Assembly: GCA_016930775.1 (NCBI GenBank)
Contig: JAFGGB010000112.1
Location: 1-63,782 of the forward strand
Direction of reading: 5' to 3'
Source: Deltaproteobacteria bacterium
GTDB taxonomy: Bacteria > Desulfobacterota > Syntrophia > Syntrophales > UBA2210
DNA: 63,782 nt
Shown in pieces: positions 44,455 to 47,222 of this stretch. The translations under genes and the position numbers were made by a program. The notes under the pieces were generated by a model. It did no database searches and had not been told where the DNA came from. It saw only the letters and a list, made by a program, of their open reading frames with translations. Positions within the stretch are counted from its first letter, which is position 1. Each line of letters starts with the position of its first letter.

Positions 44455-45648
44455 TTATTCAATAATGGAGCTGATGACGCCGGCGCCGACGGTCCTGCCG
44501 CCCTCGCGAATCGCAAACCGGAGCTGCTCTTCCATAGCGATAGGAGTAATAAGCTCGGCCGTCATTTCCACGTTGTCGCCGGGCATTATCATTTCGACTC
44601 CCTCGGGCAATTGAATCGAACCCGTCACATCGGTGGTCCTGAAGTAGAACTGGGGACGGTAACCGTTAAAAAATGGCGTGTGGCGGCCCCCTTCTTCCTT
44701 CGTCAGAACATAGACTTGGGCTTTGAATTTGGTGTGGGGCGTAATGGAGCCCGGTTTAGCAACAACCTGGCCACGTTCCACTTCCTCGCGCTTTGTGCCC
44801 CTGAGGAGCACGCCCACGTCGTCGCCGGCGCGGCCTTCGTCGAGGGTTTTCCGAAACATTTCAACCCCGGTGCAAACCGTTTTAAAGGTAGGACGGATTC
44901 CAATGATTTCAACCTCATCTCCCGTTCTGACAATGCCGCGGTCCACCCTGCCCGTAACAACGGTGCCACGACCCGAGATCGTGAATACATCACCGATGGG
45001 CATCAAAAAGGGCTTGTCAAGATCGCGTACCGGCTCGGGAATAAAAGCGTCAACAGCATCCATGAGCTCGAAGACACACTTGGCATCCGGAGAGTTAACG
45101 TCGTCGGTTTCGAGGGCCTTCAGTGCGGAGCCCCTGATGATCGGAGTGTCGTCGCCCGGAAAGTTGTAGCTTGAGAGAAGTTCCCTGAGTTCCAGTTCAA
45201 CGAGATCGAGAAGCTCTGGATCATCAACCAGATCGACCTTGTTCATGAAAACGACAACGGAAGGAACCTGCACCTGACGGGCGAGCAGGATGTGCTCCCG
45301 CGTCTGAGGCATAGGACCGTCTGATGCGGCAACGACAAGCACTGCCCCATCCATATGGGCGGCGCCGGAGATCATATTCTTGATGTAGTCGGCGTGACCC
45401 GGACAATCAACGTGAGCGTAATGACGCTTCACCGTTTGATACTCTACGTGAGCTATATTAATAGTAACACCCCGTTCCTTCTCCTCGGGGGCATTGTCGA
45501 TCTGATCGAATGCCTTGTATTCGGCAAGACCCTTCTTTGCAAGGTGCTTGGTAATCGCCGCCGTAAGCGTTGTCTTTCCGTGATCAACGTGACCGATGGT
45601 GCCTATATTAACATGCGGTTTAGTTCTCTCAAATTTTTTCTTGGCCAT
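44455..45648 (-). CDS. tuf: Elongation factor Tu
   Basis: The 397-residue GTPase that delivers aminoacyl-tRNA. G-domain motifs are intact: [10 protein letters not shown] (G1), [12 protein letters not shown] (G3), [10 protein letters not shown] (G4) and GSALKALE (G5). Domains 2 and 3 are complete, ending [23 protein letters not shown] precedes the ATG. It is the only tuf in the window; a second copy often found after tRNA-Thr near rpmG is absent. Directly upstream, where fusA should be, only a relic remains. Confidence 0.98.
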
Positions 45649-45903
45649 ATCAATTACCTCCTTCGGTTAAAATGGATAATCGCTCTCGCTATAATTTCTT
45701 GCACGCTGCTCGTCCGAAGCGTCTCCTCTCAACAATCTTTCGGGCCAAGTTTTAAAGAGGGCGCTGTCACGTAAAAAAGCATTTCCTTTTCTTCCTCGAC
45801 TTCGGTCCAACAGCGATGGCGTCGACGGCTTCCTGAAATCCAGGGGCTCACATCGAATCTGACGCCTGCCGTCACAGCGCCTGCGACTAGCAGAGCTTCC
45901 ACA
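45649..45903. other. Region between the fusA relic and tuf, no intact gene
   Basis: It holds the tuf leader with AAGGAGG at its end. Open frames such as minus 45729-45995 are not recognisable, and further EF-G decay is possible but not demonstrable by eye. I see no convincing promoter for tuf. Confidence 0.5.
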
Positions 45904-46320
45904 CTATCCTGTCGAGACTGCTGCGACCGTCGCCGGCAGAAAATCTGCGATACCGTTAATGAAAGTTTCCCCCTTTGACGACATCTGCGAGACACCCGTC
46001 GTCCGCGGACCTGCTTTTCAATTTCCGTTACGAACCCTGAGCGCTCAGGCCGTCTCTATGGAAACTTCACTATGACCGGTCGCATCAATCAGATTGACGA
46101 GACGGTCCGCCCAGGAACAAACAATGGCGGCCGTCGCACTCGTTCTGCCGCTTTTCTGTTCCTGCTCCATCCAGTCCTCGACGGTGGAACCGTCTCGGAC
46201 TTCAACCCTCTTGCTGGAAACCTTCGTACAGTAGAGTATCCGCCCCGTCGTCGTTCCGGCATCTAAATGGTCCATAATGCCGATATTGCGGACCCTATGT
46301 AAAGGAACAGATCGTGCCGC
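45904..46320 (-). pseudogene. fusA: Decayed fusA (elongation factor G) relic between rpsG and tuf
   Basis: One reading frame keeps the EF-G opening without a start codon: ARSVPLHRVRNIGIMDHLDAG, where GCG stands at the expected Met. It continues with GRILYCTKVSSKRVEVRDG, DWMEQEQKSGRTSATAA and NLIDATGHSEVSIETA. Normal EF-G has [37 protein letters not shown] and NIIDTPGHVDFTIE. The P-loop lysine is gone (AGTTT for AGKTT) and the G3 motif DTPGH reads DATGH. Beyond a TGA at 46045-46047 the frame still reads ALRVRNGN (EF-G SLRVLDGAV). After a second TGA at 46018-46020 a block resembling EF-G residues near 255-280 follows (MSSKGETFINGIADFLPA for FKNKGVQxLLDAVxDYLPS), ending at a TAG at 45904-45906. 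About 1.7 kb of the gene is missing. Confidence 0.88.
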
Positions 46321-46364: not shown

Positions 46365-46850
<486 letters not shown>

Positions 46851-47222
46851 TTACTTCGGCCTCTTTGCGCCGTATTTCGATCTTGACTGCTTCCGGTCCT
46901 GAACACCATGAGCGTCGAGCGTTCCTCGAACGATGTGGTAGCGGACGCCCGGAAGGTCCTTAACGCGCCCCCCCCTTACAAGTACAACGGAGTGCTCCTG
47001 AAGATTGTGCCCTACTCCTGGTATATAGGACGTGACCTCATAGCCGCTCGTAAGACGAACGCGGGCCACTTTACGTAAGGCCGAGTTTGGCTTCTTCGGT
47101 GTCGTTGTATAGACGCGGATGCAGACGCCGCGGCGTTGGGGACATCCGGCAAGGGCCGGCGCCTTTTCCTTTTTCCGAACCTTCTGTCTACCCTTGCGAA
47201 CCAGTTGGTTAATAGTCGGCAT
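46851..47222 (-). CDS. rpsL: Ribosomal protein S12
   Basis: A 123-residue decoding-centre protein. [21 protein letters not shown] has the lysine whose change gives streptomycin resistance (wild type here), and [33 protein letters not shown] is standard. It opens the str-type set, 72 bases after rpoC with no terminator between. Confidence 0.97.

Follow-up and report, generated by a model that had tools for sequence, protein, structure and literature searches.

A decaying str-operon fusA pseudogene in a deltaproteobacterial genome and the very likely transfer of EF-G function to a mitochondria-like EF-G encoded elsewhere

Gene content of the str operon

The window, that is, the whole 63,782-nucleotide stretch of DNA analysed here, corresponds to contig C146 of draft genome G000 (231 contigs totalling 3.12 Mb; completeness 96.9%, contamination 4.2%) and carries, in minus-strand order, rpoC, rpsL, rpsG, an interval of 716 bp, tuf and rpsJ. 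The genome most probably belongs to a Syntrophales-like order of Desulfobacterota, as its top rpsG match with a name comes from a Syntrophaceae bacterium (UBA6078; 77% identity). The features from rpsL to tuf, with the evidence for each in parentheses, are as follows.

46851..47222, minus strand: rpsL, intact (ORF of 123 aa)
46365..46835, minus strand: rpsG, intact (ORF of 156 aa; 60-79% identity to relatives)
46318..46320, minus strand: site at which the fusA start codon has been lost, reads GCG (sequence)
46030..46318, minus strand: fusA relic piece 1, EFG I codons 1-99, from the G domain to past G3 (nhmmer 158.7 bits, E 3e-49; protein profile 108.8 bits; residue comparison)
46252..46257, minus strand: junction of a 6-bp deletion (46255/46254) that removed the P-loop lysine (alignments)
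46045..46047, minus strand: internal stop TGA (sequence)
46018..46020, minus strand: internal stop TGA (sequence)
45904..45906, minus strand: stop TAG, end of the interval delimited in an earlier sequence-only reading (sequence)
45877..46029, minus strand: stretch between the two relic pieces without a clear fusA match, fusA codons 100-388 having shrunk to ~150 bp (alignments, nhmmer)
45744..45876, minus strand: fusA relic piece 2, a frameshifted remnant of domain III matching fusA nucleotides 1165-1291, codons ~389-431 (E 3e-4 by nhmmer across the window)
45657..45663, minus strand: ribosome-binding-site-like AAGGAGG of tuf, after the relic (sequence)
44455..45648, minus strand: tuf, intact (ORF of 397 aa; EF-Tu NCBIfam models above cut-off)

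Identity and decay of the fusA relic

The sequence-only reading had interpreted the minus-strand frame from 46320 as EF-G over about 100 residues and as a pseudogene of the str-operon EF-G that had lost its start codon, the P-loop lysine and the G3 proline and had acquired two internal stops, with rpsG, rpsL and tuf left intact. All of these observations hold. About 99 codons match EF-G (GTP_EFTU, E 1.8e-16 in the genome search), and the score of piece 1 against a profile of 16 str-operon fusA genes of the order identifies it as an EFG I-type sequence. Across the whole window, every position other than the relic matched with E 0.028 or worse by nhmmer, the best among them being the P-loop of tuf. 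Nucleotide identity of piece 1 to the 16 intact genes is 60.8-68.8% (288 sites). The start codon, which is TTG or GTG in the five relatives inspected, has been replaced by GCG, the DTPGH of G3 has become DATGH, and the G2 motif is altered as well, from RGITI to SGRTS. Apart from the 6-bp deletion, which is itself in frame, piece 1 has kept its reading frame, and the two internal stops are located at or near its end. The extent of the loss had been overestimated: rather than ~1.7 kb, approximately 1.45 kb are missing, given that the 716-bp interval corresponds to 2,139-2,244 bp in the 15 relatives with a whole fusA and tuf on the contig.

A further stretch of similarity, piece 2, is collinear with piece 1 and lies outside the interval delimited in the sequence-only reading. 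The family profile recovers it with E 2.8e-4, close to the value obtained by nhmmer in the window, the two profiles having three sequences in common. Because the frameshift-aware alignment of the 3' part (score 27.9) did not clear all of 30 shuffled sequences (mean 19.4, maximum 28.1), piece 2 is less certain than piece 1, its assignment drawing on the nhmmer match and on collinearity.

The relic has also escaped the constraint that acts on EF-G. It differs at 23 of the 61 residues that are invariant in the 16 intact fusA genes, and its divergence from each of these genes is 0.281-0.344 at first and 0.219-0.271 at second codon positions, whereas the corresponding maxima between any two of the intact genes are 0.25 and 0.135. 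The position between rpsG and tuf, the EFG I-type sequence, the disabled frame and the lost constraint together define an EFG I pseudogene. Thus, the core of the sequence-only reading, namely, a relic among intact neighbours with intact EF-G genes elsewhere in the genome (see below), is upheld, and the 716-bp interval is a decaying pseudogene of the ancestral str-operon EFG I gene, fusA.

Repeated loss of str-operon fusA in the order

For comparison, we used an order set of 60 genomes consisting of the window genome and 59 relatives, with no congener of the window genome among the latter. The rpsG-tuf locus was fetched from 55 relatives, leaving out G032, G055 and G057 (no rpsG match) and G041 (rpsG over two contigs), and its state could be determined in 54, G038 being uncounted due to a contig end inside rpsG. 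In G025 and G049, a contig end falls inside fusA; these two were counted as fusA keepers and left out of the gap lengths. On this basis, fusA is absent from the str operon at 37 of the 54 loci and kept at 17. Hence, the loss of fusA, which had been deemed rare from the sequence of the window, is not rare in this order. Where there is no detectable fusA, the gap between rpsG and tuf is 22-308 bp (37 loci), and no fusA remnants were found in these loci at E 1 or better using nucleotide profiles and three-frame protein profiles of the coding strand; the window served as the positive control for the nucleotide search, which detected the relic. The window is the sole intermediate among the loci examined.

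On a protein tree of rpoB, rpoC and the str genes (56 rows, many with at most one third of the columns filled), the state of fusA changes at least seven times, with five changes forced by well-supported branches. G002, G007 and G010 form the sister group of the window genome (support 96 and 99 in two trees). The 16 fusA genes share 134 invariant sites at first and second codon positions, of which 26 have changed in the relic, amounting to ~0.22 changes per site after correction. By comparison, the divergence between the window genome and the sister clade (here G002, G007, G010, G013 and G015) at fourfold sites in rpoB, rpoC, rpsL, rpsG and tuf is 0.66-0.69, which is near saturation. As a rough estimate, made on the assumption that the relic evolves at a neutral rate, the inactivation of fusA in the window genome is therefore younger than the split from the sister clade and separate from the loss of the gene in that clade.

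Intact EF-G genes elsewhere in the genome

Twelve matches in the genome exceed the Pfam GTP_EFTU cut-off. Three of these are intact EF-Gs, on contigs C116, C106 and C73, where the sequence-only reading had anticipated a second EF-G, and the others are EF-Tu, TypA, LepA, SelB, RF3, the relic itself and, on C218, three weak matches. At E 1e-255, a fusA query detected no EFG I in the window genome.

The C116 EF-G (G000:C116:2647-4731) contains a three-residue KDG insertion in switch I, the feature that, in the part of the study covered here, defines spdEFG1 (PMC3150367). Its best solved structure is mitochondrial EF-G1, with 787 bits versus 697 for the best bacterial EF-G, whereas the order is reversed for the str-operon fusA product of G001 (629 bits for mitochondrial EF-G1 versus 936 for bacterial EF-G). 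In a quick EF-G tree, which contains no named spdEFG1 from the literature, the protein belongs to a clade of 39 KDG-bearing rows set apart from EFG I and EFG II by a long stem with support of 100. Judging from these features, the C116 EF-G is an spdEFG1 of the mitochondrial EF-G1 type. The G1, G2 and G3 motifs are intact in both this protein and the C106 EF-G, and G4 of spdEFG1 reads NKCD.

The C106 EF-G is most similar to bacterial EF-Gs among solved structures (771 bits, compared to 523 for mtEFG1 and 496 for mtEFG2) and is sister to one of the two Spirochaetota EF-Gs (support 97, quick tree). Given these scores, the name spdEFG2 was considered and withheld. According to the portion of PMC3150367 that was available, some delta-proteobacterial EFGs are indistinguishable between EFG I and spdEFG2. 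We refer to the C106 protein as a putative spdEFG2/EFG I-like paralogue, which we cannot place firmly. The C73 EF-G, with RKISI instead of RGITI in G2, groups with long-branch EFG II-like rows at 100 and is accordingly of the EFG II type.

Distribution and ancestry of spdEFG1

Counting the window genome, the str-operon state is known for 55 rows of the order set. Of these, 34 of the 38 genomes without fusA and 5 of the 17 with it have spdEFG1, the remaining 12 keepers being devoid of spdEFG1. The association between fusA loss and spdEFG1 is significant when relatedness is ignored (Fisher p 1.6e-5) and not significant when relatedness is taken into account (five independent pairs, median p 0.5): none of the five pairs changed in the same direction, on average 2.3 changed in opposite directions and 2.7 showed no difference. 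In a phylum sample of 198 Desulfobacterota-like genomes, where spdEFG1 was called at E 1e-215 and EFG I from matches to a str-operon fusA at E 1e-255, 13 genomes have both, 42 only spdEFG1, 127 only EFG I and 16 neither. Some of the 13 may not carry a str-operon fusA, since the identity of their EFG I-type match is only 56-58%.

Four genomes of the order, G028, G044, G034 and G050, have neither str-operon fusA nor KDG-bearing spdEFG1, suggesting that spdEFG1 is not the sole way to lose fusA or that these genomes are incomplete (91-96%). The first two belong to one family and encode an extra EF-G (L190:95-2155 in G028; L191 in G044) that groups with Spirochaetota sequences (support 99), possibly representing a second route of replacement. 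The other two (G034, loci L129 and L204; G050, loci L143 and L207) belong to one genus and have only two EF-G-like matches each at E 1e-100, one resembling the C106 protein and one of EFG II type.

In the window genome, as in G002, G007 and G010 of the sister clade, spdEFG1 is followed by the ATPase gene and then by a TerB/DnaJ gene. spdEFG1 therefore predates the loss of fusA, and the shared order speaks for descent of the window genome's spdEFG1 within the clade that also includes these three genomes. The placement of this spdEFG1 differs between trees: it groups with G059 in the quick tree (88) and with the family group in the more careful one (83/98, not starred). The quick-tree grouping would be expected of a recently acquired foreign gene, an origin that neither the careful tree nor the gene order of the sister clade upholds. 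In our reading, spdEFG1 and fusA coexisted and were then differentially lost; spdEFG1 may also have been transferred several times within the order, with 8 changes on the tree.

An ATPase gene linked to spdEFG1

The gene directly following spdEFG1 in the window genome encodes a 260-aa P-loop ATPase (L014:4742-5521, on G000:C116). In the order set, 40 of the 41 genomes with spdEFG1 also have this ATPase, none of the 19 others does, and all 40 genes adjoin spdEFG1 on the same strand, with match-to-match gaps of 4-238 bp (median 48), except for G039, where the gap is 646 bp and the spdEFG1 match is partial. In G013, the lone spdEFG1 genome without the ATPase in this set, the locus is cut by a contig end. 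The pattern extends to the phylum sample, in which the ATPase occurs in 53 of the 55 spdEFG1 genomes and none of the 143 others; 52 of the genes adjoin spdEFG1 with gaps of 4-300 bp, and the copy of G243 is on another contig. In a sample of 80 Spirochaetota genomes, 11 have an spdEFG1 (63-65% identity); a profile search recovered the ATPase in 6 of these 11 and in none of the other 69, and all six genes are next to spdEFG1 (gaps of 11-221 bp). Within the order, all four independent pairs agree on co-occurrence, too few for significance (p 0.125).

No Pfam model reached its cut-off with the ATPase of the window genome, which weakly resembles DnaB, RadA and KaiC types. One lysine and one aspartate (in a DG motif) are invariant in 18 aligned sequences; we take the former to be that of Walker A and the latter, presumably, that of Walker B. 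On the strength of linkage and co-occurrence, we lean slightly towards the view that spdEFG1 and the RecA/KaiC/DnaB-like ATPase form a two-gene unit, in which the ATPase would act on spdEFG1 or on ribosomes carrying it, and that the genomes that have lost fusA depend on the pair. The same evidence leads us to propose that the ATPase assists the mitochondria-type EF-G or regulates it, for instance through its release. A strict need of spdEFG1 for the ATPase is argued against by G155 and G247, the two spdEFG1 genomes of the phylum sample in which the ATPase was not detected, and by 5 of the 11 Spirochaetota genomes.

A scenario for the replacement of fusA

Taken together, the relic, the intact paralogues and the distribution of spdEFG1 make it very likely that EF-G function has passed from fusA to a mitochondria-like EF-G encoded elsewhere in the genome. 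Specifically, we hold with considerable confidence that fusA is decaying because spdEFG1 and the spdEFG2/EFG I-like paralogue, already present outside the operon, made it dispensable. Under this scenario, the lineage would first have carried a second set of EF-Gs, spdEFG1 (C116) and the C106 paralogue, performing translocation and, probably, recycling. With fusA thus dispensable, its start codon and active-site residues would then have been lost, and deletions would be removing the gene while rpsG and tuf stay. The relic and the way it has decayed, the intact paralogues and the repeated losses among relatives are observed; the division of the steps between the two paralogues and the order of events are what we infer.

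An unlikely, although not negligible, alternative is that the C106-type paralogue alone assumed both EF-G functions, with spdEFG1 being accessory. This would fit G034 and G050, where the str-operon fusA is lost and only EF-Gs of the C106 and EFG II types are seen, as well as the affinity of the C106 protein to ordinary bacterial EF-Gs (~771 bits) rather than to mitochondrial EF-G2 and the difficulty of separating EFG I from spdEFG2 in some delta-proteobacteria noted in the accessible text of PMC3150367. However, the C106 type coexists with a kept fusA in G001, G003, G005 and others without having displaced it, and it is spdEFG1 that is common where fusA is gone (34/38) and uncommon where fusA is kept (5/17). 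Very improbable is a remnant with a new function, be it a short protein, a regulatory RNA or an operon spacer: piece 1 does stay in frame for ~98 codons and includes an ATG-started ORF of 76 aa (46275-46045), but the changes affect invariant residues of G1, G2 and G3 and second codon positions, as if unconstrained, and there is no counterpart in the 37 other loci without fusA. An assembly or binning artefact, conceivable for a draft metagenome-type assembly of 231 contigs, is the least credible explanation of all, because the combination of changes at 23 of 61 invariant residues with three stops, one in-frame deletion and two large ones does not look like error, the flanking rpoC, rpsL, rpsG, tuf and rpsJ on this 63.8-kb contig are all intact, and the loss of fusA is complete in 37 of the 54 relatives' loci.

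Relationship to known EF-G replacements

Replacement of EFG I by spdEFG proteins has been published (Margus, Remm and Tenson, 2011; PMC3150367), so the swap, as far as the available part of that report goes, is of a known kind; Spirochaetes, Planctomycetes and various delta-proteobacteria are named there as having lost EFG I with take-over by spdEFG. New here are the transitional fossil stage and the repeated loss of str-operon fusA inside one order. In the portions of the open-access literature covered, including PMC4342817 and PMC1780047, we found no report of a str-operon fusA relic in these bacteria; Figure 2 of PMC3150367 marks pseudogenes. Nor did the open-access literature, to the same extent, yield a report of the spdEFG1-ATPase pairing, and within that scope the linkage is new.

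EF-G, often seen as a fixed part of a conserved operon, has been repeatedly lost in this order, and one genome has been caught in the midst of the loss, so that the sequences reveal the steps by which an essential translation factor is replaced, from coexistence (5 genomes) through a relic (the window) to a short spacer (37 loci). The order also offers a natural comparison in which to ask what allows spdEFG1 to take the place of EFG I. The matter is relevant to mitochondria as well, their EF-G1 being of this type. Should the ATPase prove to be a genuine partner, a translational GTPase would have an accessory factor that has so far gone unrecognised.

The window genome resembles the system described in the accessible part of PMC3150367 in that EFG I is absent, a KDG-bearing spdEFG1 is encoded outside the str operon and a second EF-G is of ambiguous EFG I/spdEFG2 class. 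It differs from that system in the visible relic, the several losses within one order, the presence of both genes in 5 of the 17 fusA keepers and the linked ATPase. As in Borrelia burgdorferi and mitochondria, where, per the same text (PMC3150367), EF-G functions are split, there is a protein of the spdEFG1/mtEFG1 type plus a second EF-G; unlike in those systems, the second EF-G encoded by the window genome cannot be clearly assigned to the mtEFG2 type. A more distant parallel is offered by the eukaryotic eEF1A/EFL pair, for which the sections covered of PMC3938643 and PMC2652445 describe two paralogues of nearly exclusive distribution that have repeatedly undergone differential loss, one of them accompanied by an accessory protein. 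That case involves the EF-Tu/EF1A family and another domain of life, and the accessory factor there goes with the lost form, whereas the ATPase described here goes with the replacement.
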